A stretch of DNA of 64,000 bases from Onchidella celtica (Eukaryota; Mollusca; Gastropoda; Systellommatophora; Onchidiidae): positions 65,093,370 through 65,157,369 of the forward strand of contig OZ007570.1 in NCBI GenBank assembly GCA_963931925.1, written 5' to 3'. Below, in pieces: positions 1 through 64,000 of this stretch. The notes beneath the pieces were generated by a model. The model saw nothing but the letters and a program-made list of their open reading frames with translations, was not told the DNA's origin and ran no database searches. Every line of letters begins with the position of its first letter. Position 1 is the first letter of the stretch. Made by a program: the position numbers and the translations under genes.

Positions 1-3000
1 AGCCCGGCATCTCGAAGTTTACTAAGCACTTGACGAAGTGCTTCTAAGTGGCCTTTCCAATCCGTATGGAAAGCGCAAATGTCAAAGTAGCTTAGGACGT
101 ATGGTGTCTGCTGCAATAGGATGTTCATCGTCCTCGCAAATGTCGCTGGTGCTGTTACGAGACCGAATGGCATGAACCTCCATTGCATGAGACCCATAGG
201 GGTCTGAAACGCTGTGTACTGTTTACTGGCCTCTTCCATTGGGATTTGCCAGTAGCCTTTAGCTAAATCTATTTTCGAAAATACGGACGACTCAGCCAAT
301 CGCGCAAATAGCTCTTCCTGATTCGGGATAGGTTCAGCATCGTAAATGGTTAGAGCGTTAAGCTTCCTGTAATCGATACAAAACCTAACGGAACCGTCTG
401 TTTTCTTTACTAGTACAATCGGCGAGCAGTAAGGGCTCGTCGAGCGCTCAGTGACTCCTAAGCTGAGCATCTTTTCCACCTCGGACTGTATGGTGTCGTG
501 CGCGTGCAGCGGGCGCGGGTAGGGTTTAACAAACACGGGTACGTCCGAGTGCAACCGGATGACGTGTTGAACTAAGGATGTTTTACCCGGCAAATCAGTG
601 AATAGTGGCGCAAACTCCCCAACAAGATCCATTATGTCCTGTGTCTTACTTTGATCCAGCTGTGGATTGATATTAACGGAAGTCGCGTCCTCTGTGGCTT
701 GTAAGGGCAGGAGCGATCTAGTCATAGGTAATGGCTCCCGGTCGTTGTCATCGATAGTGACCATCGCTGCGTTTGCTTGGGCCACAACATGGCAAGAATG
801 ATCGTGATGACCTTGATCATCGGTAAAATACTTTTTCAACATGTTTATGTGGTAAACCTTATCGTTACCACGGATGGTAATGAGATAATTAACTCTCGAG
901 AGTCGCTTCTTAACTAGAAAGGGGCCTTTCCAAGTGAGGAGTAGCTTGTTGTTCGTTTCTGGTAACAGCACCAATGCCCGATCTCCGACTGACAGGGTTC
1001 TTAACCGACTACCCTGATCGCGATATCCTATAAATGACCTGGTCCGTACGCATGCAAATTGTCGAGCCAGGTCGCATGCATTAACTATTCTATGTCGGAG
1101 ATCGACGATGTACTGATACGCGGATCGCGTATCAGGAACGTCGGTATCAGAACCGGCGTATAAATCGCGTAAAATGGCCATCGGGCCACGTGGTTTACGA
1201 CCGTATAAAAGTTCAAACGGGGAAAAACCCGTTGTCGCATTTGGGAGTTCCCTATATGCGAACAAGATGGCCGGAAGTCGACGGTCCCAGTCACCAGGTC
1301 TATTGGCTGAAACGCGTGCCAGCATAGCTTTCATGGTGGCATTTCAGCGCTCGCAACAGCCATTGGACTGTGGATGGTATGGTGACGTAAGTTTCTGCCT
1401 AATGCCCGTGAGTTCCAGTACTTTCCTGAAAAGGTCGGAGGTGAATTGCGGACCTCTATCGGATAATAATTCGGACGGGAATCCGACGCGCGTGAATATG
1501 GTGACCAATGCCTCGGCGACGTGATCGGCCGATATTTCTTTTAACGGGATTGCCTCAGGCCAACGGGTGGCATAATCGATTACTGATAGAATAAACCGAT
1601 GGCCTCTATCCGACTTCGGTAATGGCCCGACGATGTCAACGGCAACTCGCTGAAATGGAGTGGAAACCGGCGGCATCTCTTGTATAGGTGCCCGCGAAGT
1701 TTTTCCTTTGGGGGTTCTTTTCTGGCATGTATCGCAACGCGACACATAGCTATTTATGTCACCGTAAACCCCGGGCCAAAAAAACTGAGACAGGACTCTC
1801 GATTTTGTTCTCGCTTTGCCCTGGTGGCCCGACAATGGCGTGTCGTGAGCGAGGCGGGTGATGTCTCGGCGAAATGATCTTGGTATGACCAATTGCAAAA
1901 TAGTTTCGCGCTTTCCCCGAAAAACGCGATATAGGAGGTCGTCTTTCAGGCAGAACCTGGTTGTATCCGGGCTGTCCGGATGAATCTTAGCAAAGAGGGG
2001 CTTTAGTGATGGATCTGTGCGCTGTTCGTTACGAAAAATCTCGGGGGTCACATCCAAGTCGACGACAGGCGATCGTAATGTGTCGTCACTCTGGCGACGC
2101 GATTGTTGTCTTGTCGTGACACACGCAATGTCGTTCTCATCGTCCCAAATCTCGAGTTCGCTATCGGAGACGTCCTTTAAATGGGGAATATTGCCAATGA
2201 TTAGGTCGGCAACCGGATTTGGTAGCACACAGGCCGTGACAACACCAGTTATAAACGGAGTGTCAACATATATTTCCGCCAAACGAAAATGTTCAACTGA
2301 ACCACCAAAAGTAATACATGTCGCATCGCGATCCAGGAGTTGTGCAGGACGGACCAGCGATTCACGCACACCGACGGTCGTACAGCCTGAATCTCGCAAT
2401 ACGGATGCTCGTATGGCGTTTACTTGTCCCTCATATAGTGTCAGCGCGCCTCGCTCGTGGAGGGCGGACATAACTGGAATAACTTTATTTACGGTTTCGG
2501 CATTCCTAGTTCTGTTACCGCGGTTTTCGGTGAATGCTACAGAGCATGCATTTGCCGCATCTAATCTAACTCGGCATTGTTTCCGAATGTGGCCTTCGCC
2601 GCCACATCTATAACAGTGGAATGGATTATAATCCCTTCGAGGTGTACCTCGATAAGAAGGAAATGGGGGCGCTTGATAGTAGTTGTTACGCGGTCCTCCG
2701 GTAGGGAAAGGACGTGAATATCGGGGTTCCCAGTCCCGAGAAAAATTACGGGGATTCGGTTGTCTCCTGTTAAACGGCGGCTCGGACCGTGGACGAACCT
2801 GCGGCGACTGTCGAAAGGGCTGTCGTGATTGTCTCGACGGTACCGGTGTCCTAGTAACAACGCCGGCGTAACACGGTTCGCTTAATTTAGCTTTAGCTAA
2901 CGATCGATTAGGGTGAGCCGCAGCGTACCGTTCCGCTATCGATGTTATCTCGACGGTAGTTTTGGGGGCTTGCTCCTTAAAATGCGCCACCAGGTCCGGG

Positions 3001-3782
3001 TGGCAGGACATATATATTTGGTCTTTAATTATTAAATCATAAATTTTCTTGAAATTTCCCTCTTCCACACCGGCCAACTCAGTCCAGCGGCTGAGCAGGT
3101 GGCGGAGGCGGTCCACGTAAGTGGAGAAATTCTCAGATGCTTCCGGCTTGCAATCGCGGAAACGCTTATGAAATCCCTCCTCCGTATGTTGGAAACGCTT
3201 TAGTAGCGCGGTCTTTAGAATGTCATAGTCCCTAGCGTCATCAATAGTGAGGCTATGGAAAACTTCCAACGCTCTCCCTGTCAAAAGATTGGCGAGGCAT
3301 GACGTGTACTCGCCACGCTGCCATCCCGCGCAAACGGCATGGAGTTCGAAACGGTGGAGGCAGGAATCTATGCGATCAACCTTATCATTAAAGGTTGGCA
3401 ATTTAGGTTTCGTTTTATTATTGGAAGTAACTTCCGGAGCCCCGGTAGGTTGGGCTTGCTTCGCTTCCAACTGTTTCAAAGCGAGCTCATACTCTCTTTG
3501 AGCCTGTTTCTCCGCGCGTTCCGCGGCTCTATCGTCACGTTCCGCGGCTTTTTCTTGGGGTAATATCTCCGCGGCCTTTTCTTCTCGTTCCGCAGCCTTT
3601 TCTAGGCGTAATCTCTCCGCGGCTTTTTCTTCTCGTTCTTCTTTCAGTTTCTGGTCAACCCAAGAAGCACGCTGAGCTTCCGGTATGCCAAATGATTGAG
3701 CGAGTTCCAAATATCTCTGTAGTTCGGCCATGATACCGGTCGATAATGCGATATAATGTCCTAATCGAGGACAACTTATCAA
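1..3782 (-). mobile_element. gag-PR-INT-RT coding part of the Gmr1-like element
   Basis: Parts recognised, in element order. A charged, coiled-coil-like N-terminus rich in E/K/A/R (about 3,500-3,780) leads into a retrotransposon gag domain (about 2,900-3,400). A basic RQP-rich linker follows, then a CCHC knuckle CYRCGGEGHIRKQC (about 2,570-2,615) and a protease-like DSG motif (about 2,360-2,400). The integrase HHCC zinc-binding region is at about 1,710-1,850 and the catalytic core at about 1,340-1,640, with AVDIVGPL and SDRGPQFTSD. A C-terminal integrase/linker region lies at about 560-1,300. RT motifs follow: LVKKTDGSVRFCIDYRKLN at about 360-420 and the palm region toward base 60. Family assignment rests on these motifs and their order. 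Treated as a fossil. Confidence 0.82.
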
Positions 3783-5690
3783 AACTCTCTAACTTTATTC
3801 TCCCTGGAAGCAATGTATCAATTGCACTCTGCGGGTGTTCGTTCCTGCAGTATGAACGAAATTAACGAAATCAACAACAAACAGTATGTCTTAGTCAACC
3901 AAGTAGTGGTTGAGCTATCCTAGTGATCACTTATCTCCTTCACGTATATCTCCTAATCCTCAAGCAGTCAGTCTACTGCTTCCTGCTTGGTCGTTAACTA
4001 ACGATACCAATGTAATATTCCCAGTGTATCTTCCGTACACTCCTAGCAGCGTTCCCTCTGCTATAAACCGGAATAAATCAATATTCACGATATTAACTTC
4101 CTTGGCTATACAAGCCTAACAACTGTAATATCCAGATTATCTCTCAACGTGCCATAGACACGTGATTTATCCCAGGCAATAATAGCAATAATGAGTATAA
4201 AAATATGATACTGTAACACTATAATGGACAAGAATTACACAGAGAGTGACTAGACTAACAGAAAGAACAAACGACAACAGACCCGACTAACCTGAAACTA
4301 TCTACAGAAAGGTAAGAAAAAGAACAGGAGAGACGTCTTCCTAAAAGTACGAGGAAGATAGAACGCTAACAATCTACACGAATAACAGGTCCCTACAGAA
4401 CTATTCAAGGCAAAGCATACCTCACACCCGGTTTAAACCACCATCTAGATCGACTAGTCTGGCAAGAAAGGTAAGCTGAGTCTCGATCCCTTCCAACCTC
4501 CCGCGTATCTAATCTAAACACAAAAGAAAAAAAAATAATGCCTGTCAAAAGTAGGGGAGCTGGAACAACGGACCCCTCAAACGAAGACTAATACAGATGG
4601 TTCACTTAACTGGGTGAAATGGACTGGCTCTTTCCCTTGGTCCACAGCGCTGGTCTTGTCTTTTCCTGTTACTAGCTGTCAGTCCCTCGTAGTGGTCCCA
4701 GGATCAATGACGAGAGGACATGCCAGACATGTGGGGGAGAAACAAAAAAAAAAGACAATAGAGGTATATTCAAAGCAATAAATTCTAATTACTAACTTAA
4801 TATATGATATTTCATGTAATTATGGTTCCTTATTGGATGTACTGCAATCAATAGCAAATAGGTATATTATACGAAACTAGATATCAATTTAAAGTGACAG
4901 TTGAGTCGCCACTGGCCAGTCGCCAGGCAAACTCTCCCTAAATCATATGGGCTTGAATGTTAGGAGAGCCCAGTATGTTCCAAGCCTACAGAAGCACACT
5001 TCGGCTTGTAGGTAATTACGTAGTTGCAAAAAACTATTTATATATATGCACAATCATTATTCAATTCATCAACAATGTGCCATATTACTTCAATCATACT
5101 ATGGAAATAATTCTATAACACAGGCCACTCGTCATCGAGTGCCAGCTGGGGTTTCCTTAGACTTCCTATGAGGCTGTGGTTCTCTCTCTATCTCTGATCT
5201 TCTATTATGCTTGAACAAGTAAGATATATTACCATTGGTCACGCCTACTGGTAGGCGCGAACATCAAAATAGCGCAGCGTGGGCTTTCAAAGGTCAGCCC
5301 ACTCAGACCTTTCTTTCTAGAGCTCAGTCAGTCCGTTAGCAAGGACTTCTAGTCTTCAAACCACACAGTTCAGGTACTGGCCAACCGGATATACTTCACG
5401 ACACGATGCTTCTGCTCGTCTGTATTCACCAAATCTGAACATTACACGATGTTATATACTATCTGGCTACCCAGCAGTGCTAGTCCGCTGGCCCAATTAG
5501 TTCAGCTATCTCATAGGTCGAAACCTCCCACCATTTTAATTGTAGTAATACGTCTGCACTATTCTACCAGCCAGTTAACGTGCAAAAACTTGTCTAGTCA
5601 TACTTAACAATGTCAACTATCCCCACCTTGTTTCACCCCTACTCCATTACTTATTAATCACGAACATTAAAACCGACAAGCGTGCATCTA
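3783..5690 (-). mobile_element. 5' LTR and leader of the Gmr1-like element (approximate limits)
   Basis: This noncoding stretch precedes gag. It is related, in reverse orientation, to the solo LTR at 8.9-13.0 kb. The segment around 4,890-4,935 (GAGTCGCCACTGGCC, then CGCCAGGCAAACTCTCC) matches the reverse complement of about 9,915-9,955. The segment around 5,160-5,260 (GCTGTGGTTCTCTCTC, then ACCATTGG) matches the reverse complement of about 9,590-9,665. The two are clearly diverged, so they are sister subfamilies rather than one burst. I could not place the primer binding site or the exact LTR ends. Confidence 0.55.
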
Positions 5691-31214: not shown

Positions 31215-33546
31215 GGGGGATTCCAAGCAAGGTCCTGAGGTCAAAATGTTCAAAATGGGTTTATAACCGTGTCCATGGTTTTAATTACAGGTAAAAGACT
31301 CTAGGTTGAAGGTCTATATTAATTCTTCGAGTTTTAGAAGGTCAAGGTCGTTATTTTATTCGTTATTGAGTGTTAGGTAAAAATTGGCCAGAATTTCACT
31401 CTGGTCCAGAAAGTAGGTGCATGTTTTTAAACATCTGCTGAAGTTCCTGGTTTATAATTAGGATGCATCCTTATTGTCTACATGATAGCCCCTTTATAAG
31501 GGAACAATTGTACACCAGTTTTGTTGAACTAGGTATTTTAGTATTGACAAAATTTTAGAAAACAAATAAGATTAGTTTGTCACGCCGTGAGGTGTTTTTC
31601 CCTTTTTCTAATGTATAAACTTAGAAACTTAAAAAATCAAAATACCCCTTGAACTGACTTATGGCCAGGGTATGAGATATACACAAACCAAATTTAAACA
31701 AAATTGGTTAAAAAATAAAAGAGCTGTCAATAATTGAAACAGCATTAGGCCGTAAATTGTTTCCCAAAATCAATTAAAAAACATTCCCGACTCACATAGA
31801 TATGTGGTTGAAGTCTTTGAACTAATGAAAATGTGTGTATTTTGTGATAATGAATGATTAAATTTATGTTAATTTTTTTTTTTTTTATGAGCTGCTTTGG
31901 CTGAAAAATATGCAGTGTTCAAAGAAAGAAGAGAGAACGTTGATGGAAAGAATGTGGTTGTACAAGTAGATTTTGCAGAAAATTATGCTATTATACAACA
32001 AAACGAAATCCAAAGTGCTCGTTGGAGCCATGAACAAGTGTCATTGTTTGCAACTTGTGCCTGGATTAACAAAAATGTTGTCAGCTCCTGTCTTTGTAAC
32101 AGATGATTTGAATCATGACAAAGTAGCCGTTGTCTTTCTTATCAGAAAATTGATCACCACACTGCAAACTGAACACAAAGAAATTGAACATGTCAGCATA
32201 TTTTCAGATGGTGCCATTTCCCAGTTTAAGCAAAAATGTGTCCTCCCCTATCTTACTGTATTGAAAAATGAGCTGAAAGTAAATCTGTCTTGGCATTTCT
32301 TCGCAACGTCCCATGGAAAGGGTGCAGTGGATGGCATTGGGGCGGGGGGGGGGGGGGGGGGAGATGTGAAAAGGACAGTTTGGATTTCAAATTTGGCAGG
32401 GCATGTTGTTTCAAATGCAAAGGACTTTTTAGAAGTTGTCAGTGAAAGGTCAGTGAAGACTAAAGTCATTTTTGTGGCTTCTGAGAACATCAGAGCATCA
32501 GAAGATAGCCTATCTGAAATTTGGGAAGATGTGCAACCAATTCCCCAAACACAAAATACACATATTGTCAAAGCTCTCCAGCCCTTTAAAGTTGAGTATT
32601 CTCTCCACAGTAAAAAAAAAACAACAACTGTTAGCACACATGTCTTCAACTCAAGCCTTTTCAAAGCAAGTCTATATCTCATGAATCCACTTCTGCTGAA
32701 AGAAATGACCCATTTATTGGTGATTTTGTTGTGGCCAAAGTTATGGGAAAATCTCAAACCAAAAACTTTGTAGCTCAAGTGATTGAGAAATCTGAATTCT
32801 TTATTGAAGTTCATTTTTTGAAACCTGGAATTAATGCACAAACATTTACATGTATTATAAATGAAAATGATGTGCACACCGTTGAAATGCAAGATATTGT
32901 GAAAGTTCTACCAACTCCAACCTTGAACAAACGGGGCCACTATTTTTTTCAGAATGATCTCTCTAAATTCTTTTGATGTACTCGCACACGTTTTTTTTAG
33001 TAGAATTCAACTTGTTTATTGGTTTTCTTTCTTTGTACTTAAATTTACAAATTTTTTGTTAATAAAATTCAGATGCCTAAAAATAAAGAAAAACCTAGCA
33101 CAGTACATTTCTTTTTTTTTTTGCTATGTTCAGTTGATTTTTTTTATACTGTCACGCCGTAACGTCACGCCGTAACGGTCACTTATATCCTTCTCTCATA
33201 TAAAGTTAAAAACCATTAACTTCGCTATCATTTATTTGGTAACTAAGTTTGTCCTTTTACCCATCACATGTAAAGATGGGACCTCAGGTCCATCTAGGGG
33301 ACGTGAATTTTACAACTAAAGTTTATGACCCAAAAAAATGGGCTTTTGCGTCACGCCGTAACGGTCAAGGATTTGACCACTTCATTAACTTTTGATTTTA
33401 TTTCTCTTGGTGCCATCCTGAACACAATAAATCCTAGTTTATCAGTGTGTAATTTTAAGTCTGTACTGTTACTAATAATCCTTCTAGAAAAGACAAAAGG
33501 CAAAAAAGTGCCCTTTTTTGTCACGGCGTAACGCTTGGAATCGCCC
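31215..33546 (+). mobile_element. Degraded DNA transposon with GTCACGCCGT subterminal repeats
   Basis: The limits are suggested by a short inverted pair, GGGGGATTCCAAGC at 31,215-31,228 and GCTTGGAATCGCCC at 33,533-33,546. Inside are five copies of GTCACGCCGT or a one-base variant, at 31,579, 33,151, 33,164, 33,350 and 33,520, often followed by AACG; such iterated subterminal sites are typical of transposase binding. Between them is a transposase-like coding relic. I see no clear target duplication, so the exact ends and the superfamily are uncertain. Confidence 0.55.
31897..32976 (+). pseudogene. DFAENY/SDGA/TSHGKG transposase-like protein, broken
   Basis: Three overlapping frames carry one protein. 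The first has VVQVDFAENYAIIQQNEIQS and SHEQVSLFATCAW. The second has VTDDLNHDK, HVSIFSDGAISQFKQK and WHFFATSHGKGAVDGIG. The third has GDFVVAKVMGKSQTKNFVAQ and a C-terminal tail ending KRGHYFFQNDLSKFF. The pattern D...SDG..SQFK...TSHGKG..DG.GG is shared by a family of uncharacterised invertebrate proteins and probably forms an RNase H-like DDE core; that is from memory. At least two frameshifts separate the frames: one near 32,090 and one in the A-run at about 32,612. An 18-base poly-G (32,344-32,361) sits inside the conserved DGIGG motif and encodes extra glycines. An inactive relic. Confidence 0.65.
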
Positions 33547-34672
33547 ATAATTGACAGAATAAATAATGAATCCCCAACATTTTTGCTAATAGGTATACAT
33601 TATGGAAGTGTATATCCGTACAACACGCTGTATGTATATGGACAGTGCATATCCATATAACATGTTTACCAAAAAGCGCGACTGGTGAAGGTTTGCTGAA
33701 ACAAAACTTGGTATGGTGTTCACGAATTTAAAGTGACAACACATGGAATAGTCAGATGGACCTGGGGACGCGAGGGTCTAGTCAGTTTGTATCAATGGGC
33801 GGTAGTCAGATTGACTAATAAGGCGAAAGGGATTGGGGTAGCCATTGATGATCGACGTACACTCAAGTATATTATTAGCGCAGATCACGCAATCTCTGAG
33901 CAGAAGTCGGATTGTTTTGCTACTAAGCCGATTCATATTTTTAAAAACTATGCAAATTAACAAGGTCAGTAATATAGTATTCTGGTGTGTGTTCTATGTC
34001 ATGTACGGATATGCGCTTCCATAGACTCCGCCATCTTTAGTGTCCGGACCCGCCCACCACCATGTCGACTGTGGCAATGATTTTGATTCGTTGGCTGATA
34101 TGCACTGTGAGACACAGGAGGTGCCGCAAACTAACCGGTGGTAAGCTAAAAGTAGGACACTACAAGAAACAATGGCATGTGTGTAACATGTTCAATGACA
34201 GATGTTCGGTCAATTCTTTCACTTCCTTTCCCTTGTTTACATGGATGATAGGGAATCTGACCAATTTGGATCCATCCTTTCCACCCCTGTCGTAGCAATC
34301 AACTACAATGCAACTAGCAGGCAGTTTAACCGCTTAGACATATTTCGAAGTTACACTGATCAGCTGATCCACCGGCCATCTTTAGTGGCGGAAAACCAAA
34401 ACAAAAAAACTCTGTGACATCATGCGCATTCTACCTATGTCTTCCTTTGGAAGCAAAAATGGAGAATCTGCTCTTACCTCAATTCTCTCACTACAGTCCA
34501 CGCAGAGGCTGTGGGTAAGCGAGGCTGATAATGAAAGTGCTGTATCCAGTAGGGAAGACCAGTTCTCACTTGCGTCAAATTTCTCTGACATTAGCTGCCT
34601 AAGAGCAACTGAATAATAAATTTACCAGCCATCAAACGTAATCAATGATAATATCAGTAGCAAGGCAGAATC
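33547..34672. other. Intergenic spacer, nothing recognised
   Basis: About 1.1 kb between two transposons. I see no TIRs, no domain and no spliceable coding segment. Short open stretches here show no conserved motif. Confidence 0.5.
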
Positions 34673-34685
34673 GGGTATTGCTTAA

Positions 34686-34800
34686 TGTCGAAACCCGTCG
34701 AAACCCGTCGAAACCTGTCGAAACTCGTCGAAACCTGGCGAAATCAGGGTATTGCTTAAAGTCGAAACCCTTCGAAACCCGGCGAAACCTGGCGAAATCA
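34686..34800 (+). repeat. Left TIR of the MULE: iterated GTCGAAACC units
   Basis: About ten imperfect 10-bp units (GTCGAAACCC, GTCGAAACCT, GGCGAAACCT) end at GGCGAAATCATAAA. The inverted counterpart, ending TTTATGATTTCGCCGGG on the plus strand, starts at about 40,305. Iterated units inside a TIR suggest repeated transposase binding sites. Confidence 0.8.
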
Positions 34801-35050
34801 TAAATTTTATTTTCATGATTTTATACTTTTCTTTTTCATACGTTATAATCTTCAAAAAACCTTTTTTGTATTGCTAATTGGTCTTTCGCAAATACGAAAC
34901 TGAAATTACCGCATGGCTCCGGATGTTTACACTTTCGCTTTCAGAAGCTTGCTTCGCGCCTGCATTTCGGACAAGAGCGATCATCAATACTTTTGTTCAT
35001 TGTTCATTGTTCTTTGTTGATCACTGGCATTCACTGAATTAGCGAGTATC

Positions 35051-36581
35051 ATGCCTCGACGAAAGTTTCCATGCACAGTGTGTGCTTGCAACTGCAACGA
35101 AACTGAAAACGCCATACAATGTTTTCAATGTGCAAACTGGATCCACAGGTGAGGTTTTTTTCCCTTGACTTTTGTTTGTTTGTTTTGTTTGTTTTTTTAC
35201 ACAATAGTATGAACACGGTTACATTGGGGAAAAAATGAAACTAGCTTTCCTCGTGGCGGGTTTTGTGGCAGAGATTTGGCAGATAGTAGATAGGTGTGTG
35301 GGAGAAATCCACTGGGATGGGTTTTTCTACATGGGTTCTGCACTGAGCTATATTAACATTGGTGAATTATTAGAAAATGTCATACCTTGATTTTATTGCG
35401 ATATTCACAAGAGATTCACAGATTGACAAATGGTCATTTGTTCTCTTTTTAAAGGCGGTGTGTTCCAATGGACTACGACATGCTGACAGAATGGGGAGCG
35501 GATGGATTGATGTTCGTTTGCAGACCTTGTGCATTTCGTGCAGAATCTGGGTTTTACCGGACAGAGGATGCTATTGAAAGGTGAGACAAATTTCTTTTTG
35601 TTCTTCCAGTCCACACTGGAAAGAACTTTAATGTCTACAGGGAGGACAAATTCCGTTCGTCCGTCTGTCTGTCTGTGTGTCTGTCTATGTGTCTGTCTGT
35701 CAACAAGGATTTCTTAAAAACTACAGCACCTACTGAGCTGACATTTTACAGTATGGTTATGTGCATTAACGCGCTATCAACAAACTAGGTGAAGTGACCT
35801 CAAGTCAAGGTCATGGGGTCAACTTTGGCAAAAATTTAACAACTGCTGATATTTCGGATACTATTAACAGTAGAGTTATGAAATTTTCACCAAAACGTAG
35901 CACATGAGAAGGCATATCAAATCGTACGAGACTCCATGACCCTGAACCAAGGTCAAGGTCACAGGGTCAACTTTAATTGTTGACAATTTGTATTTTTGTT
36001 AATATCTCAGATACTTTTTACAGTAGAGTTATGAAAGATTTACTAAAACGTATTATATGAGGAAGCAATTAAAGCATATGTTAATATCTCGGATACTTTT
36101 TACAGTAGAATTATGAAGTCTTTACCAAAACGTAGGCGCCAAATAAACGTTGCAATATTGAACTATTGTTAATATCTTTGATACTATTAATACTGTTAAT
36201 ATCTTTGATACTATTAACAGTAGAGTATTGAAACTTGACCAAAAGTTTGTTTGTGTCAAGACTTTTGAAAGCATGGGTGAGAATGACTTTGACCTAATGT
36301 CAAGGTCACCATGCAACTGTCTAATACCTGTGATCATCAAAAAAATTTAGTACGATATTTCATCTCTCTTTTGTCCAAGAACGGATAAACAAATTATGTT
36401 AGTTTATATTCTCAGGGTTCGTTCATCCAGTTTGTACCGAGAATTACATGTAACATATTATTATCGAATGTATTTCAGACTTGCAAGTGCCAGTCCTGAA
36501 CAAGCGCAAATTCAGGCAAAAAGTGAGCAACTCCTGCTTCAGACCTACGGTATTGTGCTGCCACCCAAGAAACATCTGTAG
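35051..36581 (+). CDS. PHD-finger protein ORF of the MULE, three exons, intact
   Basis: Exons 35051-35148, 35455-35580 and 36479-36581 join in phase at GT-AG junctions into 108 codons plus stop. Residues 5-60 form a PHD-type zinc finger (C4HC3 spacing): FPCTVCACNC, then CFQCANWIHRRC, then CRPCAF. The C-terminus is a short helical, Gln-rich tail (SPEQAQIQAKSEQLLLQTYG). PHD fingers read histone tails, so this could steer element insertion or chromatin binding; that is inference. The second intron (about 900 bp) is packed with a degenerate satellite. The next ORF starts 13 bases after this stop, so this may be a separate protein or the first part of a once-continuous one. Confidence 0.65.
35640..36350 (+). 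repeat. GTCT microsatellite and degenerate satellite in MULE intron
   Basis: A GTCTGTCTGTGT run at about 35,658-35,702 leads into a block in which AATATCTCGGATACTTTTTA-like and ACAGTAGAGTTATGAA motifs recur about five times with a period of roughly 90-130 bp, with AAGGTCAAGGTCA-like motifs between them. Widespread-looking simple/satellite DNA rather than element coding sequence. Confidence 0.7.
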
Positions 36582-36593
36582 TATTCATCTGAC

Positions 36594-39247
36594 ATGAGCT
36601 GTGATAAAGTCTCACAAAGAGTCCTTGAACAATATCACCCTGTAATGTTAGATACCCATGTCCCTGTGCAGACCTGCAGTGATGGAAATTGTTTGTTTCG
36701 ATCTTTATCACTTGGTCTTTTTGAAACTGAAGATCAACACATATTGATCCGACTGTTGACAGCCATTGAAATGATCTTACACAGAGAGCATTATGACACA
36801 GACCATGAGCAGTATGTTGACAAATTTCATGATGAGCGGTTGACGTTTGACAAGTACGAGAAAATGATGTGTGACCGTAACAAGGCTTGGTGGTTACTGT
36901 GATTTGCTACCTGCTTTTACAGCTAGTGCTGTACTTGGAGTGTCATTTTATTCTTACTGTCCACCCACTTCAGGTGCATACTTTCTGAGTGATCCCCTCA
37001 GCAGATGGGTGAAGGGAAGGGGTGTATCGGGGAAGAAGAGACCTGAATGCACAATGATGTGGACTGTATCCACTTTCAATAAAAAAGACCCAGTTACAAG
37101 TTTTCGGCCAAACCATTTTGTTGTCCTTGTTGACAAAAGGCCTGCCGATGCAGCTGTTGTTGTTGATGATGATGATGATGTGAAAGATGCTGATGCAGCT
37201 GTTGTTGTTGATGATGATGATGTGAAAGATGCTGATGCAGCTACTGTTGTTGATGATGATGTGAAAGATGCTGATGCAGCTGTTGTTGTTGATGATGATG
37301 ATGTGAAAGATGCTGATGGAGCTGCTGTTGATGATATAGTTTGTAGTACTCTCAGCTCTGCTTCTGATGACGATGATGGTGTTGATGATGATGATGATGA
37401 ACATTGTGATGACACTGATACAAATGTTGCACATGATGATGATGATGACCAAACAGCTTTGCCTCATGGGAAATTTCTAAGCATAGATAACCTGTTAGAT
37501 GCTCTTATAAAAACTCCATTGTCTGAAGCCCTTGAAAAAGTTCCAAATGGAAAAAAAGACAATGTTTACTTCGTTGTAAACAATTCTGACAGTTTACAAA
37601 GAAGAGAGCAGGGTCAGAATTCCATTTTTCATGATGACAGGGGTACCTGGGGTCGCGGTCCCACAAACAAAACACTTTTTGTTCAGAAGGATGGAAAGAT
37701 CCAAAAGGTTGTAAATAAAGGGGAAAATTACTGTTTAGAAAGGACAAAAAGCAACAAAACAACTTACACACCTCTGACCCCCCAACCCCTCACAGAGGAA
37801 ATCCTGACTCTCCATAGGTACTATGTTAAGCACACTGGGTACGAAACATACCAAAAACGCGTGTCTTGGCTGTCCAATGAGTTCAAGTTGCCTACAATCC
37901 CACCCATTGCCATTTATGAGTTCAAAGGGACTTGCCCACCCCCTAAACCCCATGGTCGCACAACCACAGGGAACTGTGGCTCGTACGTCTGACTTCATCC
38001 AAAAGTCATGAAAAAAATTAAAGACAAACTAGACACCCAAAAGCCAGCCGAAGTGTACACCGAATGTGGTTTTGAAGATGGGCCGCGAAACAAAAAGCAG
38101 GTGTATAATGCAAAAGTCAGGCAACAAAAAGAGAATGAAAGGGGCACAAATATCAATTTCTCTGATCAATTAGCCTCAGTTGAGGAGATGCAGCATACAT
38201 GTCCTTTCGTTCAGCAAATTATTAGAACGTATGGAAAGACAGCGAGTATAATCCTGTTTTCAAAAGAACAGATAACTGATTTGGAAAGATTTTGCTGTCC
38301 ACCACACACAGCACACAGCACTGTCCTTCGTGTGGATCAGACATACAGTCTTGGAGAAAGAACCTTGCATTGACCAGGCGTGGCACTGAAGACCATCCCC
38401 TTTTTTTGGGGTCCTATGTACTTACAAGGAAATTCCGACTTTGATTCCTTTTTCATTTTTTCCCATCATCTGGCCGGCCGTTTGCAAGCATGTCCTCAAA
38501 GCCCAACACTGGGAAGTGATGAGGAGAGCACTCCAGAATGCCATCCGCACAGCTTTTCCTAACTCCCAGCTGTTGATATGCACCCGTCATCTTAGAAACA
38601 ACTTTCAAGCAAATCTTGCAGACAAAGTGGGAATCCCAATGAACCAAAGGAAGCAAATTACTGAATGTCTGTTTGGAAAAAAGGGCATAGTCGCGTCTGC
38701 AACAGATCCAATTGAATTTGAAGATCATGCTGATTTTGTGGCGCAGTCTCTTCCAAAAGAGGCCAGAAAATATATCTCAAGGATTGTGCCTTTTTTGAAA
38801 GAGAACATTGATGCAACCTTGAAGCCGGGATTGCTTGTAGAAAGTCCAATGTGGACAAACAATAATTCAGAATCTCTGAACCATGTACTGAAGCAGACAG
38901 TGGACTGGAAATCACAGAAGTTGGTGCAACTCATTCAAAAACTTGAGAATGTGGTAAGAAACCAGTTCCGAGAAGTAAAAAGATCTCTGTTTGGTGCCGG
39001 TGATTACACTCTTTGCGGTCATTTTCGCAAGTTTTTCATTGAACGTGACAGCTGGTTCCAAATGTTCGTGGAGCGGAAGACTCAACGCTTTGCCCGTTTT
39101 ATGAACACGACCAATGACACAAACGTTGTTCGCTCAACAGATGGTTTGAAAACCACTCTTGCGCCCAAACACACGGGGAAAAAGCCAGGCCAACGCAAAA
39201 GGAAATTGAATGCAATGCAAAAACAAACAGTGCACCCAAACGAATGA
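36594..39247 (+). pseudogene. OTU protease plus MULE transposase coding region, frameshifted
   Basis: The first frame opens MSCDKVSQRVLEQYHP and carries an OTU cysteine-protease core: DGNCLFRSLSLGLFE with the catalytic D-x-x-C (about 36,680) and, after a frame change near 36,890, the matching FRPNHFVVLV with the catalytic His (about 37,110). Then come an Asp-rich repeat (37,140-37,330) and a conserved KRVSWLSNEF region. The transposase shows LRVDQTYSLG (first acid, about 38,330), LGSDEE (second acid, about 38,508) and MWTNNNSESLNHVLK (Glu region, about 38,855), as in MULE-type DDE transposases, ending with a basic tail (HTGKKPGQRKRKLN). Further frame changes or stops near 38,000, 38,370 and 38,510 mean it is not intact here. 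Confidence 0.7.
37143..37330 (+). repeat. Acidic in-frame minisatellite (VVVDDDDVKDADAA units)
   Basis: Four units of about 36-48 bp encode VVDDDDVKDADAA-like peptides within the OTU-transposase ORF, with runs of GAT codons. Unit length varies by whole codons, so the frame is kept. More Asp runs follow to about 37,450. Confidence 0.85.
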
Positions 39248-39471
39248 AAAATAAGAAGACAATAGTTTGAGTGAGGGGAGATATTTGAGAAAGAGAGAGA
39301 AGTCTGTATGTTGTGATTTTGTGGAAGGAAGTATTTGTGATTTTTTTGTTTCATTTATTAAATTTTTCTTTTACAATGCCTCCAGGCCCGTTTTGCTGTG
39401 AACCCAATGACCTTGGCTTTTTAAATTTAAGTGTTTTTTCTCTATTGAAACTTTGATGACAACTTATGCAA

Positions 39472-39713
39472 ATGTGTATTTCCTGCATTGTATGTGTACC
39501 TACATTTTGCATTTCATTTTCAGATGGATTTTCTTTGAGTTATGAGATAAGAGAATGTGTATTTCATGCATTGTATTGTACCTACATTTTGCATTTCATT
39601 TTCAGATGGATTTTCTTTGAGTTATGAGATAAGAGAATGTGTATTTCATGCATTGTATGTGTACCTACATTTTGCATTTCATTTTCAGATGGATTTTCTT
39701 TGAGTTATGAGAT
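39472..39713 (+). repeat. Three-copy, ~82-bp tandem repeat 3' of the MULE transposase
   Basis: The unit beginning AATGTGTATTTC(C/A)TGCATTG and ending GAGTTATGAGAT(AAGAG) occurs three times with one or two differences per copy. It lies in the 3' noncoding part of the MULE. Confidence 0.85.
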
Positions 39714-40809
39714 TTATGCATGATATCCATTTAAATCCATCAATTAATTGAATAATTTCAAATATGGTTAAGGTTAGGGCTAGGCAGTATGTGAGCTGTG
39801 TCTCTTTATCTTTGATTTTGTGTGTTGCTGCTGTCACAAATTAGGTTACGTTACCTTTCAGCAATCTCTTGAATTTTGTCCTTGTCATTGTTATTGTATT
39901 TCTCCTGTTTTGACAGGCATTAAAATATATGACTCTGAAATGATTAAGTCTTAGTTCATTCCCTTTGCATGCACGAATTGTCAATTTTTAAAAGTACCTG
40001 TATATTTTGTTTCATTTCATTTGGGAGTGTCTGTTTTGTTTAGTTTGTTCGATTTTTTTTATTTTTCCTTTAAATAAATTTGTTGAAATATATGTTTTGT
40101 TGTTTCATTTTCATGACAGTAGCCAACTCCCGTGTTTGTGATGCACCTATCATTATTATTGTTATTTTTTAGGTGGTGGTGATGATGATGACGATGTTGT
40201 TGCAGGCCTGCTTAAGACTTTAAAAATCGGCAATTTAATATGAGAAACAGTGTTGGGGGTGTTGATGTAAAAAAATTCCCGGGCAGTGGCCTTGCGGCCC
40301 ACGCTTTATGATTTCGCCGGGTTTCGTCAGGTTTCGACGAGTTTCGTCTGGTATCGACGGGTTTCGTCTGGTTTCGACACTAAGCAGTGCCGGGCAGGGA
40401 TCTAATATTAATAATAATAGGCATGATAATGATTTGTACACTTTTTCAGCCCGGTCTTTGTCCTTCATACTTGTTCACTTGTAATTTATTGTAATCACTT
40501 CAAATTCATGACAAGAGTTCTGCGGTACCTATTTACCGCGAAACCCCGCGATACCCCACGGAACCCCGCAAAACCCCCAAGTGTTTCCGTTCATTGAAAT
40601 GTAAATTTATTTTATGATAATTTCATTCCGATTTGAGTCCGGTGCGGCATCTGCCTAACGGAAAATTCCAAACAATAAAAAGGAAAAACAATGAAAATGA
40701 AAGAAAGTACAACATAAACTTAATCTGAAATCTAGATCGACCAAAGAGGTTATATATATATGGCCTTTAGCGTCTTTACAGACGGTCTTAGCAGCTAGAA
40801 TATTCACTT

Positions 40810-42759
40810 TCACTTTGACTGACAGCTTCTCTCGTGGCTTATTCTACCAATGTTTGACCCGAGAGTGCGATGGCAGTGATTGCAGGTCAGTCTTTTGGGT
40901 TCACTTTGGCGAGTGTTTTCATTCCGCCTCTGTCGTTTTGTCAGGTATGTTCCTTTTGCCTTGAAGTCTATTGCGAGCGTGCCACTGCGCAATTTTTGTC
41001 TCCATCTGCTTCGATCATTTGCAAGGTTCTCCCATTCATTGGGGTCGATGTTGAATGCTTTCATCGTGACCTTGCAAGTGTCTTTGAATCGCAGATGTGG
41101 CCTACCTCTGGGTCGGTTGCCAGTAGCAAGTTCCCCGTAGAGAATTTGTCTGGGGATGCGATCATTTTCCATACGGTGGAGATGTCCAAGCCACCGCAGT
41201 CTTTTTTTGCCTAGGAGAGCCTGAGTTGATGGAATGTTGGCTCGGCTCAGAACTTCGATATTTGAGATCATGTCTTGCCACTTGATCTTGAGAATTTTGC
41301 GTAGGCAGCGCAGGTGGAAGGAGTTGAGGGATCTTTCATGTTTGGAGTAGGTGGTCCATGTCTCTGAGCCATACAGCAGGGTGCTTAGGACGCAAGTTTG
41401 GTACACGAGTACCTTTGTTTTGATGGTCAGCTTGCTATTGTTCCACACCCTTTTTGAGAGTTTGCCAAAAGCTGTGGCCGCCTTTCCTATTCTGGCATTT
41501 ATTTCAGTTGTTATGTCTGTGCTACCACTGATGGTTGAGCCTAGGTAGCAGAATTTTCCCACTTGCTCCAGAGGAGAGCCATTCAGCATGATTGGGTTGG
41601 GGTTTCTCAAGCCTTGTGTCAAAACTACAGTTTTTGAGACACTGATCTTTAGCATGAATTTGTCACAGGCTTTGGCAAGGCTATTGATGAGAGCCTGGAG
41701 CGTGGTTTCATCGTGGGCCACGATTGCGGCATCATCTGCGAAGAGGAGCTCTTGTAACATAATATGCTCTGTACGAGATTTTGCTTTTAGTCTGGCAACA
41801 TTAAAAATGGAGCCGTCCACTCTGGTGTTAATAAGTACTCCACCTGAACATTGACCAAAGGCATTCTTGAGTAGGGCTGCAAAATATATACCAAATAAGG
41901 TAGGAGCAAGAACACATCCCTGCTTCACACCGCTGTTTACAGCAAATGAATTGGATGTGCAGCCCTCAAAGTTGACACATGCCCTCATGTCAGTGTGGAA
42001 GGATGCAATAAGTTTTAGCAATGTTGGTGGACAGCCTATGGATTTAAGGACTGCCTACAGGCCAGATCGGCTTACGGTGTCGAAAGCCTTTGTTAGGTCC
42101 ACAAAGCATGTTATAAGCGGCCTGTTTTGTTCTTTACATTTTTCTTGGATTTGCCGAAGTGCAAATATCATGTCAATAGTTGATCGTTTGCTTCGAAAGC
42201 CACATTGTGTTTCTGGTAAGACTTTTTCCGCCAGTTGTTGAAGGCGGCAGAGGATGACGCGAGCAAAAGCCTTTCCAGTAATGCTGAGGAGGGATATGCC
42301 TCGATAGTTGTTGCAGTCGCCTTTGTCTCCTTTGTTCTTGTAAAGTGTGACAATTTTGGCGTCTCTCATATCATGTGGTATCACGCCTTCTTTCCAACAC
42401 TGCAGTAACAGATTATACAGGTGTGGTAATAGTGGGCCTTTTAGGTCTTTTAATACCTCTGCCGGAATGTTGTCACTTCCTGTGGCTTTTCCAGCAGACA
42501 GGTGGTCGATTGCATTGGAAAGCTCGACTGAGGAAGGTTCAGCGTCAAGTTCGCCCATTATTGGCAGTTTTTGGAGGTGTTCCTCAAAATCTGGTGGAAT
42601 ATTTTTCTCAGTTGAATACAACAGAGAGTAATGCTCTACCCACCTATTCAGTTGTTCATTTTTATCTGTGATGGGTTCACCATTTACAGACTTAAGTGGG
42701 GCGCTTTTGGTGATGATTGGCCCAAGAGCTACTTTCATCTGACTAAAGGCGGTTTTCAT
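40810..42759 (-). pseudogene. LINE reverse transcriptase with one in-frame stop
   Basis: RT motifs in order: AGKATGSDNIPAEVLK, DAKIVTLYKNKGDKGDCNNY, RGISLLSITGKAF, FVDLTKAFDTVSR, then SGVKQGCVLAPTLF and the catalytic LLFADDAAIVAHDE. The thumb/C-terminal region has FCYLGSTIS, LSTLLYGSETWTTY and LRWLGHLHRMENDRIPRQIL, and ends with a CNHC...H...C zinc motif and stop at 40,810. A TAG at about 42,053 interrupts the frame just after FDTVSRSGL, where related elements have Trp, consistent with a single G-to-A change. Confidence 0.85.
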
Positions 42760-42790
42760 ATCTCCCTTTTCATTTGCCTCTTGTATGCTG

Positions 42791-43999
42791 TTAACACAAG
42801 TCTGTCCAGTATTTGTTGGCGCAACGTCTTACCTCCAGCTGAAGTTTAGCTTTTGCATTTTTCAAACAAGTTTTTGTACTCTGATTGCAATTTTTGTTAT
42901 ACTCATTGAAAGCAGATTTCTTTTGCTCAATGAGAGGTAGGAGAATTTCGCTGTTCTGGGCTACCCAGTCGTTGTTTGAAACTTTATGCTGTCCAAAAGA
43001 CTTGATGGCACAGTCATGAATTTTTGAACTGAGAGTGTTCCATGTTTCATCTACCGAGTCACATTGGGTGACATTATCCATGCTTTCAGCAAATAACTTT
43101 TCAAATGACTTTCTATTTGATTCATCTCTGATTGCTGTTACATTGATCTTAGGGATTGAAGGGGCTTTTGATCTGTATATTTTCTTGGCCGAAATTTTGA
43201 TTTTGCTGACTACCAGTGCATGGTCGGTGTCACAGTCAGCACTGTGGAGGGAACGAGTTATTTTTATACAGCCCAAACTCTTCCTCCTTGAGAGAATAAG
43301 ATCTAATTGATGCCAATGGCCAGACCTGGGATGGCGCCATGATGTTCTTTGGCATCTCTTAAGGTCAAAGTACGTGTTTGTAACACATAATGAGTTTACG
43401 GAGCATAGCTCCAGAAGGCGCTGCCCGTTTTCGTTGATGTTGCCAATGCCGAAGTGCCCAATGCACTTTGGCCATGCGGAGTGATCTGCTCCCACTCGAG
43501 CGTTAAAGTCACCCAGAATTAGCAGGCCTTCGGTGAGAGGGATGTTGTGGAGAGTCCTCTGCAATGCCTCGTAGAAAATGTCTTTGGTTTCGTCAGAGGA
43601 GGTAAGTGTTGGGGCATAGACACAGATAATGTTGGTAAAACCAGACCGGGTGTTCAGTCTGAGTGTCATGATGCGTTCTGACACTCCAATTGGAGTTGCG
43701 ATCGAATTGATAAGGGAGTTTTTTACGGCGAAGCCCACGCCGTGGATTCTCGGCTGTTCGCTGCTAAGGCCCTGCCAGAAGAAGGTGTAGTTTTCTTCTT
43801 TGACTGACCCGGAGTCGGGAAGTCGAGTTTCTTGAAGGGCAGCGATGTCGATGTTTAGTAGCTGAAGTTCTCGATCAATAATTTGGGATTTCCTGATGGA
43901 GTCAATATTAGTGAGATCTTGCTGTTGCAAGCCTGGGCGCATTGTTCTGACGTTCCAGGTACCAAGTTTTAGTATTTTTCTGTTTTTGCCAGGTGCACA
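42791..43999 (-). CDS. LINE apurinic endonuclease domain
   Basis: Opens with LKLGTWNVRTM, the usual start of APE-type LINE endonucleases (about 43,940-43,970). It continues with IAALQETRLPDSGS, ILGDFNARVG and the HWHQLDLIL region near the catalytic His. The stretch after the endonuclease (SFGQHKVSNNDWV, NECNKN-type helices) links to RT. The frame ends at 42,791; a one-base shift near 42,800 would be needed to enter the RT frame (NSIQEANEKGDMKTAFSQMK). Confidence 0.85.
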   Translation of the reverse strand, partial: CAPGKNRKILKLGTWNVRTMRPGLQQQDLTNIDSIRKSQIIDRELQLLNIDIAALQETRLPDSGSVKEENYTFFWQGLSSEQPRIHGVGFAVKNSLINSIATPIGVSERIMTLRLNTRSGFTNIICVYAPTLTSSDETKDIFYEALQRTLHNIPLTEGLLILGDFNARVGADHSAWPKCIGHFGIGNINENGQRLLELCSVNSLCVTNTYFDLKRCQRTSWRHPRSGHWHQLDLILSRRKSLGCIKITRSLHSADCDTDHALVVSKIKISAKKIYRSKAPSIPKINVTAIRDESNRKSFEKLFAESMDNVTQCDSVDETWNTLSSKIHDCAIKSFGQHKVSNNDWVAQNSEILLPLIEQKKSAFNEYNKNCNQSTKTCLKNAKAKLQLEVRRCANKYWTDLC

Positions 44000-44718
44000 C
44001 TTTACGTCAGCTTTTTGACTTTTGGTCTAGCTCCAACCACCTTATGAAGCAGGCTGACGTGGCGGAACAACACCCAACTGCCTGGGGGCTGCCCAGGTTA
44101 CGGCGGGCGGTAGTTGATCAATGCAGCTGAAAAGCCGCTCCCACCGACAGAGGGGACCCCTGGCGCTCATCCGTACGCCAAATGGATTGAGCTTATCACC
44201 GGTAACTGCCACCTCCCGTGTTGTGCCCATCCGTAACGGATGGCTGGAGTGTCCTCTCCAAATCGGAAATGGGTGGGCTTATAGAGGAGAGACAGACGCT
44301 TGCCAAGCCCGAGCAAACGCCTCCTCGTTTTGCTGCCTTGCCTGGGCTATTTTTAAGAGATGGTGCTTTGCCCAGAGGCACCACCCCTCTCTCTGCCATT
44401 CTAGTTAAACCCAAGGGAGAGACCAGGTCAATACATTTGGAACTAGTCCGGCTGCAGGAGATGCTGGAAGCCAGTTTGATGCAGTTCTCCCTGACAACCA
44501 CCTTCGGGTCTCCACTCCTGATTTTCTGTCTGGGTTTACTCCCATAGCCTTTGCTATCATAGCAACACACAAGGCAGTGTGGTATTTGTATTCAGGGTTA
44601 CCTTCCCCTAGTCTTCCTCTCTCCCGAGATGACCCACAAGACAGTGGGGGTGACAGTAGCAGGCTGTATTGTGTACTGTCGTACAATAGCAGAAAACTCT
44701 GGCCTGACAATGAAAATA

Positions 44719-61025: not shown

Positions 61026-61714
61026 TGATGACGATGAAGCCGACAGGTGACAGGTGAGGTGACGTTTTTTTTTTAAAGGCACAAAACTCTACAGAATAAT
61101 GTTTTTGCCAATATTTTGTAGTTACCTCTCTTACTTTATTGGCCTTTATTTACATAATTATGTGCTGCAAATTTGTAGATATTCTGTCTAAATCTTTCTA
61201 AAAGATGCACTTATATTCTGGAAAATTGTGCTTTCGTGCGAACGGAATCACTGAACATGGTTTTACATTGCTTTGCCACAATCTACTGGAACCAGATGAC
61301 ACTAATCTATTTATCTTCAACAGTCATCCCCATACCGGGCCTTATGCAAAACCAGACGGAGCCTCAAAATAATGTAGCGGAAGTTTTCGTTTTGGCGGCG
61401 CAATGAACCTTTGCGCATCTGCGTGCGCCAGTGGCACATGTCTATGCAAATCACCCATGACAACAAATACGTCACTGGCGACGGTGCTCTCGCTGTTTTA
61501 TAGTTGACGTATGGAATGCCCAGGCAGTGATATCTTTGGATGTAGGCGATGCGCTCACCGTGCAGCATTCGTAGGGATTAACATTTGTGTGCAAGTTATT
61601 CATTTCTGGATTGGATATTTATGACTGTGGTGCTTGATCTTGTGATTGAAGTACCCTGTGTGAAACTTTCACTGAAAGGGTGAATCCTCTTCGAGGAGAA
61701 TACGAGAGGCCAAG
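61026..61714 (+). other. FOXO 5' flank / 5'UTR
   Basis: Directly precedes the FOXO start codon. No TATA box or intron in the leader can be fixed from sequence alone, and no repeat is seen here. Confidence 0.4.
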
Positions 61715-62083
61715 ATGGATGCAGCTGACATAGATCTTGATTTAGACTCAAATTTCGAGCCACAAACTAGGGCACGCTCCAATACATGGCCACTGAGACC
61801 TTCAAGAGAACTAGAACCCCAAAGCAGTCCTGTAGGAGGAGATGAAACTGCCAACGGTGGGGAACAGCAGAATAATGCCAAAGACCCACTTGGTTTAACT
61901 GCCAAGAAAAGTGGCTCTCGCAGAAACGCATGGGGAAACTTGTCATACGCCGATCTTATCACCAAAGCTATCCAAAGCTCACCGGAGAAACGTTTGACTC
62001 TGTCTCAAATTTATGATTGGATGGTGCAAAATGTGCCATACTTCAAAGACAAAGGCGATAGTACCAGTTCTGCAGGATGGAAG
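61715..62083 (+). CDS. FOXO: FOXO forkhead transcription factor, first coding exon
   Basis: FOXO is the forkhead factor at the end of insulin/PI3K-AKT signalling, moving out of the nucleus when phosphorylated. The 123 codons begin [20 protein letters not shown]. Residues 19-24 (RARSNT) form the N-terminal AKT/14-3-3 site R-x-R-x-x-T, with Thr at position 24 as in human FOXO1. Residues 69-123 are the first half of the forkhead domain ([55 protein letters not shown]). The KDKGD insertion and NAWGN start separate FOXO from other forkhead classes. The exon ends in phase 0 after SSAGWK at donor GTTGGT, the junction I recall for vertebrate FOXO. The rest of the forkhead domain and the transactivation tail lie beyond the window. 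Confidence 0.95.
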
Positions 62084-64000
62084 GTTGGTCGTGTCTTTTG
62101 TTTTGGTCGCATGCCAATGTTTTGAAACTGATAGGACCAGGGTGTAGTCCCCGCCCCCTTGCCTTCTCTGGAAGGGCTCCGAGTTGTGTCCGATTGGGTC
62201 GAGTAGGCCTAACCCAGCTTCAGTTCTTGCAGTAAGCTTGAGAAGGTATAGAATTGGGCCGAAAGATGGCACAGTGGTTCGGGGGAAACAAATTAGACTA
62301 AGATCTACTTTGACGTTTATAATATATTGGTTTTTCACGCTTTGCCGCTCCATGCCCGCTCGCATGGCGCATTACAGTAACCCATTAGCTCCCCTGCACC
62401 GTTAGCAGAGGTTACTGCGTAATTTTTGGCTATGTGCCATTCCAGTCGAGCTGACCGAAATAAGGTCACGGCAAGCGGTTTGTGATAAGTTTAGCACAGG
62501 GGCCTACAAGAAATACACAATTATTTTCGGGTTCAACTTTTTACATAGAATACAATGATACTCTTGGCTTATTGTAAAGTTGATTATAAAAAAAAAAAAT
62601 GAGCACACACTACTCCAATCAAGCCAGCTAGTTAAATAGGCCCATTAATTATGATTAGACATCTTTCACAGAAGAATTTGAAAAAATACCGCTTGTTCAG
62701 TACCACGAAGAAAGGTCTTACCTTTAAATTCATAACAAACAAAAAGCAAGAAAACGACGTTAGTGGGATTTATCAATGGTGGGGGGGGGGGGGGGGTAAC
62801 ATCTAATGTAATGTAAAACTTCGAAACAGTCTCTTCCCTTAAAAAACAGGAATTCCATTGAAAGCAATTTCAAGACGAAATGTGCAACCATCGCAGCATA
62901 TAAATAACTAATAACTTGCCACTCTTTCCTTACGCCTCACCGACGCTAATCGAATCCACTGACACGCGGAATACAGTATTCGATTCCTGCCACGCGCAGG
63001 TAAAATGGCGGACGGAGCGCCGGGACCGCATTTTTCTGCTAGTGCCCAGTTGTTGTCTTTAATTCTCAGTCTTTGTTAACATCGAAAGGATTTGGCGATG
63101 TAAATGAGGTTTGCCAGTAATTATAAAATGCTGACCAAGGAGAACAGGCTTTGTATATTGGGGGGGGGGAGGGGATTAATATATGGAAAGGGAAGGCTGT
63201 CAAAAACAACAATAACTTTTGCCTTACGTGGCCACCTTACTCTTTCAATAGTAAAATGGGATAAAGATTGTCTGTATCTGGTAAGCTTCATTCTAAAGAG
63301 CTTTTATTTCATGTTTCGAGTGTTAATTGCTGAGCTGTGCATAAGATGACTCCTTGAATCACTATCAGAGATAAATGGATTTGTAAACCCTGAATTTTAC
63401 TTGTCTAAAGGGGGGGGGGGGTGGGAGAAATTAAACATGGTTATATAATCTGCCTGAAATGTGGAATTTATTATCACAAGTACTATACAGAGATAGTTTT
63501 CATAAGAATGTTAGTTTAATGTTGCATCTGCATAATTATAGTGGTTGGACTGGGGTCACATTCAAACAAATGTCTAGAACTGGACTTCATCCTGTAACTC
63601 TGGTTCTCAAAATATGACCCAAAGCATAAATGGTTGGACTGGGGTCACATTCAAACAAATGTCTAAAACTGGACTTCATCCTGTTACTCTGGTTCTCAAA
63701 ATATGACCCAAAGCATAAATGAGTGCATTTAGTGTGTGTTTCTTACAAAGTCTACAGACACAAAGCAGAATAAGTAGTCTGAATGTCTTATAATTTAAAG
63801 GCTCCTGTTGCAAGAATAAACCCAAAGAACTGCAATTGCTATTGCATCTTCCTCCACATCTACGTAGTTTAGATATAAACTTGTCATGCAGATTGCGTGT
63901 TCTCATAAATGTAACTGTTCCCTTCCACACCATAATTTTTTCCTGTCAATTCAATCCTGAATAAACTGATGCAGAATCTAAGTTGAACTAGACTTCAGGG
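62084..64000 (+). other. FOXO first intron, no exon seen
   Basis: At least 1.9 kb without the expected NSIRHNLSLH continuation, so the intron is long, as is usual for FOXO. It contains poly-G tracts (about 62,779, 63,162 and 63,411) and a two-copy repeat at 63,542-63,719. A small ORF after an AAAATGGCGGACGGAGC string at 63,002 (MADGAPGPHFSAS...) has a start-like context but is only 24 codons and cannot be tied to FOXO. Confidence 0.6.
63542..63719 (+). repeat. Two-copy, 89-bp tandem duplication
   Basis: TGGTTGGACTGGGGTCACAT...ACCCAAAGCATAAA occurs at 63,542-63,630 and 63,631-63,719 with two substitutions, so it is recent. It lies in the FOXO intron. Confidence 0.92.

Follow-up and report, generated by a model that had tools for sequence, protein, structure and literature searches.

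Between positions 34673 and 40392 of a 64,000-nucleotide stretch of DNA from Onchidella celtica (contig OZ007570.1; the whole stretch is called the window below), a PHD finger, an OTU protease core and a transposase of MULE type lie one after the other, enclosed by matching ends. The locus raises the question of whether these three domains are parts of one transposon, and at one time of one protein, or whether they have come together by accident. We address it here by means of the ends, the reading frames and the domain matches of the region, and compare the region with elements described in the literature. We will argue that it is most probably the decayed, full-length copy of an animal transposon that belonged to the Mutator (MULE) superfamily and moved autonomously by cut-and-paste, one whose ancestor encoded a single protein composed of PHD finger, OTU protease, acidic linker and DDE transposase. 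The ends, the order of the domains, the frames that they share, the presence of the catalytic residues and the death of this copy are established directly.

Ends and surroundings of the element

The element spans 5.7 kb. The longest of the 48 inverted pairs in the interval 34600-40460 consists of two arms of 88 nt, at 34674-34761 and 40304-40391, which are 81% complementary and have a core of 65 nt at 89% identity in the self-comparison. Both ends are made up of 10-bp units of CGAAAC type. The left terminal inverted repeat (34673-34804, plus strand) opens with the terminal motif GGGTATTGCTTAA, followed by these units, and its terminal block is present twice, starting at 34673 and at about 34747 (91% over 56 nt); the right one (40304-40392, minus strand) is built from the same kind of units in one block. 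Terminal inverted repeats, often long, are a hallmark of the MULE superfamily, and the present pair is of this kind. Short tandem units within long inverted ends are also found in Muta1, an active MULE of the mosquito Aedes aegypti, whose terminal inverted repeat contains 12-bp subterminal repeats (PMC5225508).

The superfamily is further characterized by a target site duplication of 8-11 bp. The candidate here, GGCAGAATC at 34664-34672 and GGCAGGGATC at 40393-40402, is an imperfect and weak pair of 9/10 bp. Since 25 of 400 random position pairs match equally well in an identical search, it is no better than chance at the 5% level and proves nothing. Between the transposase stop and the right terminal inverted repeat, tandem-repeat analysis gives an 82-bp minisatellite with 2.9 copies (39471-39713, plus strand), which resembles those listed for Rehavkus and for aphid Phantom elements (PMC6446971).

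No further copies of the element ends were seen within the window, except for a short array of 10-bp units at 40536-40577. This lone array of CCGCGAAACC lies just beyond the right end and is like the units of the terminal inverted repeats, and no partner array was seen in the window. At 40810-44026, on the minus strand, there is a non-LTR retrotransposon with endonuclease and reverse transcriptase spread over three open reading frames (ORFs). Elsewhere in the window, a single ORF of 814 aa (1344-3788, minus strand) comprises gag, a CCHC knuckle and an integrase (H2C2, rve) and has no reverse transcriptase match at E 0.001, and an ORF of 267 aa at 31970-32773, containing IFSDGAISQFKQKC and HFFATSHGKGAVDGIGA, has no match in Pfam at E 0.001 or in NCBIfam at E 1. 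Located at 61676-62125 is a FOXO exon that encodes half of the forkhead domain, the first, with FOXO proteins as best matches; it identifies the window as animal DNA. Rfam at gathering scores and ARAGORN gave nothing for the window.

Protein-based scans for relatives of the element gave none in viral contigs (three pieces) or in genome contigs (one piece). Two degenerate motif scans returned 7 and 44 loci, and tblastn with four pieces of the element (exon 3 onward, without PHD exons 1 and 2) against all 51 of them gave weak matches only, the best being an acidic low-complexity stretch at E 0.001; from the alignments, these matches were judged to be chance. By eye, the ORFs of two of the 51 loci (L015 and L013) resembled those of phages. 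For an animal element, the lack of a relative in viral and prokaryotic collections is expected.

The three domains and their reading frames

We now consider the coding content, which in plus-strand order consists of a spliced PHD finger, an OTU core, an acidic linker and a MULE-like DDE transposase. The first part is divided over three plus-strand exons, which are separated by GT-AG introns and, once joined, form an open frame that is 108 codons long and ends in TAG. Exon 1 (35051-35148) has the start codon, PHD cysteines 1-4 and the histidine, with a GTGAGG donor at its end; exon 2 (35455-35580) contributes the last three zinc-ligand cysteines and ends at a GTGAGA donor; exon 3 (36479-36581) is in the frame of the OTU part and is closed by the in-frame TAG. 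The ligands, C-x2-C, C-x2-C, H-x2-C and C-x2-C in the spliced exons (C4HC3), are divided between exons 1 and 2 and united by splicing only. In Pfam, PHD (PF00628) ranks first for the spliced protein (E 3.7e-4, model 1-47 of 47) with 20.9 bits, below the cut-off of 24, and in a search of solved structures the best chain is the Pygopus PHD (E 1.3e-4). Read in frame, exon 1 alone has no Pfam match and exon 2 alone has no PHD match; the latter gives zf-C2H2_REST at E 0.0052, presumably by chance, and one weaker match. The alignment with the Pygopus PHD runs through the tryptophan preceding the histidine, a residue that forms part of the methylated-H3K4 pocket in several PHD fingers. Intron 2 contains, at 35640-36430, several diverged copies of a block of ~50 bp (at 35849, 35997, 36079 and 36190), perhaps a nested repeat.

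The OTU protease follows on the plus strand in two halves that lie in different frames in this copy, the N-terminal half with DGNCLFR at 36582-36902, recognized by Pfam and by motif, and the C-terminal half with NHFVVLV at 36868-37142 (end approximate). The DGNC codons are at 36681-36692, with the cysteine at 36690, and the histidine of NHF is at 37114; both the cysteine and the histidine codon are kept. Pfam ranks OTU first for the N-terminal half (E 4.1e-4) at 21.3 bits (21.2 in a second run), below the cut-off of 23.3, and the best solved OTU enzymes are matched at E 0.1 or worse. The acidic linker (37158-37335, plus strand) is encoded by a 42-bp tandem repeat with 4.3 copies in which the frame is maintained.

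The transposase, likewise on the plus strand, can be followed in three stretches. Its N-terminal part (37464-38373, start approximate) is without a domain match of its own and reaches past the first catalytic D at 38335; it is interrupted in frame by stops that end at 37992 and 38373. The next stretch, 38374-38562, has the second catalytic D at 38518 and is followed by a frame change. The ORF with the C-terminal part, 38390-39247, has CxxH from 38579 and the catalytic E at 38870 (NNNSESLN). By motif, then, the D-D-E triad and the C..H motif between the second D and the E are present, across one frame change, with spacings of 61 (D-D), ~23 (D-H) and ~117 (D-E). The motif around the first D presumably resembles that of a cnidarian protein family. 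In Muta1, D214, D283 and E419 are each required for transposition in yeast (PMC5225508), and the corresponding spacings, computed from the residue numbers, are 69, 24 and 136. From the second D to the E there is a single tryptophan here, 6 residues before the E; in Muta1 this distance is 18.

When the transposase is read across its breaks, MULE (PF10551) ranks first in Pfam with E 0.0025 and 18.6 bits (cut-off 27.6), over model positions 71-99 of 99 only. For the unbroken C-terminal ORF alone, MULE comes second (E 0.0096) after DUF6890 (E 0.0031). The only NCBIfam match of this ORF at E <=1 is the IS256 transposase (E 0.0087; 15.1 bits, far under the cut-off of 150), a prokaryotic family that the Muta1 paper terms related to MULEs (PMC5225508). 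A search of solved structures (PDB) with the transposase ORF gave one chance match, at E 0.64. It is important to point out that the MULE E-value is weak by itself, because the presumably accidental match of exon 2 reached E 0.0052. The assignment to MULE, which we consider probable, rests jointly on the profile, the IS256 match, the motif spacing and the ends, and not on the E-value alone.

In summary of the profile searches, PHD, OTU and MULE each rank first in Pfam for the spliced or read-through piece, all three below their curated cut-offs and MULE with the weakest score. For the four reversed controls, namely the spliced PHD and three unbroken ORFs, the outcomes were E 0.2, no match, no match and E 0.084. 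Structures predicted from single sequences had low confidence, with a pLDDT of 46 for the N-terminal half of OTU and of 51 for the C-terminal part of the transposase.

The reading frames connect these pieces. Exon 3 and the start of OTU form one frame, separated by the single TAG at 36579-36581, and the end of OTU, the linker and the start of the transposase form one plus-strand ORF of 374 aa, compared to 239 aa for the longest ORF on either strand in 500 first-order simulated elements. Beyond this ORF, its frame can be followed across two TGA codons, which end at 37992 and 38373, as far as the second catalytic D. Stop counts over 36480-39247 are 23, 42 and 83 in the plus frames and 19, 30 and 33 in the minus frames; they do not single out the plus strand, because the reading frame shifts within this interval. 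Since PHD exon 3 shares a frame with the start of OTU, and the end of OTU an ORF with the start of the transposase, the three domains appear to belong together in a single element with matching ends. These frames point to one ancestral protein, with the order PHD-OTU-linker-transposase, that decayed after insertion, which is the simplest reading.

The decay itself is clear. The coding sequence is interrupted by three in-frame stops, whose last bases are at 36581, 37992 and 38373, and it changes frame twice. The first change falls within OTU, somewhere in 36868-36902, and the second, located by means of the motifs, comes after the second D, somewhere in 38518-38562. The copy is a dead pseudogene and can make no working transposase or OTU. 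Another option considered was a working domesticated host gene, and this is rejected because of the three stops and two frame changes.

The results confirm the observation at the core of the original prediction, in which one plus-strand element at 34673-40392 with matching terminal inverted repeats combined a spliced C4HC3 PHD finger, an OTU core of the form DGNCLFR...NHFVVLV and a MULE-type DDE transposase. The arms, the complete set of PHD ligands, the catalytic codons of OTU and transposase, the first-ranked Pfam models and the common frames are all as described above. That the copy is a pseudogene was absent from that prediction.

Known elements and alternative explanations

Several of the features found here are known from other transposons. 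Dupeyron 2019 lists, in Table 1, an 'Ovarian Tumour Gene' for MuDR-6_HM of Cnidaria (Hydra), in MULE group 14 (PMC6446971). The original prediction had regarded an OTU in an animal MULE as a new parallel invention, a claim that is not supported in view of this listing. Judged by the Table 1 entry alone, MuDR-6_HM is like the present element in being an animal MULE with an OTU, and differs in that a zinc finger and a terminal inverted repeat are not listed for it, whereas here there are a PHD finger and 88-nt terminal inverted repeats. Muta1, also an animal MULE and an active one, has tandem repeats in its terminal inverted repeat, a DDE triad and a CH motif (PMC5225508), all of which have counterparts in the dead copy studied here; the available text of that paper mentions neither PHD nor OTU.

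Proteases of a similar type have also been reported by Bao 2010 (PMC2836005), who describe Ginger1 elements with OTU or Ulp1, some Helitrons with OTU, and hydra, lancelet and plant Mutator elements with Ulp1. The last of these resemble the present case in that a ubiquitin/SUMO-system protease accompanies a MULE transposase, the protease being Ulp1 and not OTU. In Ginger1-9_HM, Ulp1 occurs together with PHD, and the legend of Fig. 1e of the same paper refers to Ulp1 and PHD domains of Ginger1 and Mutator transposases, with the PHD in the Mutator ones uncertain. Ginger1 is thus similar to the present element as a DNA transposon with OTU or Ulp1 and, in Ginger1-9_HM, PHD in one transposase, and it includes a gastropod family with OTU. 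It is different in having a transposase of Gypsy-integrase type, a 4-bp target duplication and its extra domains at the C-terminus.

OTU and PHD are absent from the available main text of a 2026 survey of arthropod MULEs (PMC13359780), and the accessible portions of PMC6431247, PMC6875170, PMC3482391 and PMC9993606 contain no PHD-OTU-MULE case. A PHD, an OTU and a transposase in one MULE frame were not found in searches of one open-licence library, and an earlier description may exist outside it, in Repbase or in subscription papers. Since an OTU has already been reported for an animal MULE, the novelty is smaller than first thought.

With these systems in mind, we can weigh other origins of the locus. 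The element could belong to Rehavkus, a PHD-bearing sister group (outgroup) of MULEs, and have gained an OTU. According to Dupeyron 2019, two features set Rehavkus apart, its PHD finger and the minisatellite that precedes the 3' terminal inverted repeat (PMC6446971), and both occur here, the minisatellite being the 82-bp one between the transposase and the right end; as far as the published description goes, the long terminal inverted repeats are shared as well. However, no OTU is listed for Rehavkus in that paper, its PHD is said to sit in the transposase domain and not N-terminally ahead of an OTU as here, and the listed hosts are arthropods and annelids. We regard this origin as unlikely. 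The published PHD of Rehavkus and the OTU of MuDR-6_HM (PMC6446971) also speak against an ordinary animal MULE having captured pieces of PHD and OTU genes from its host in the manner of Pack-MULEs, in one or a few copies and with domains useless for transposition. Such uptake is known for MULEs (PMC6446971), and the PHD finger here does resemble host Pygopus PHD fingers, but a common ORF of OTU and transposase together with a common frame of PHD exon 3 and OTU is unexpected under random capture, which we consider quite improbable.

In an accidental pile-up, the PHD/OTU part would stem from a separate nested element or gene remnant with which the MULE has nothing to do. Only a single copy has been seen, intron 2 has its diverged internal repeats, and introns 1-2 or OTU are linked to the transposase or beyond by some inverted pairs that are short (18-26 nt, 74-89%). 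Separate ends of the PHD/OTU part, in the original prediction the sign of such a pile-up, were looked for. Among the 25 longest of the 48 inverted pairs, none starts before the PHD finger and ends between OTU and transposase, and the only pairs that start before the PHD finger are those of the terminal inverted repeats; the self-comparison shows no direct repeat bracketing PHD and OTU. As the frames, moreover, continue from domain to domain, we consider a pile-up very improbable, and a full-length MULE that encoded the three domains in one protein is the explanation that we prefer.

Proposed mechanism and implications

For the ancestor of this MULE, a mechanism can be outlined. By analogy with Muta1, the transposase would bind the repeated 10-bp units of both ends, and its D-D-E site would excise the element and reinsert it elsewhere with a short target duplication. 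Judging from the identity of the domains, the PHD finger most likely tethered the complex to histone H3 tails, and the OTU most likely deubiquitinated the transposase itself or else chromatin or repair proteins in the vicinity. A role of this kind was proposed by Bao 2010, in whose view OTU and Ulp1 domains act in transposition, e.g. via repair factors (PMC2836005).

Among DNA transposons, the unrelated Ginger1, Helitrons and Mutator all have members with a protease of the ubiquitin/SUMO system, and PHD fingers are found in Ginger1-9_HM and Rehavkus. A MULE with PHD and OTU in one frame is a further case for the question raised by Bao 2010 of whether such domains take part in transposition. 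It is possible, and we suggest it only tentatively, that there is an animal MULE lineage that retains a fusion of PHD, OTU and transposase under selection. If this is true, one and the same protein would read histone tails, strip ubiquitin and cut DNA, and would thus constitute a transposase with its own chromatin-targeting and anti-turnover module.
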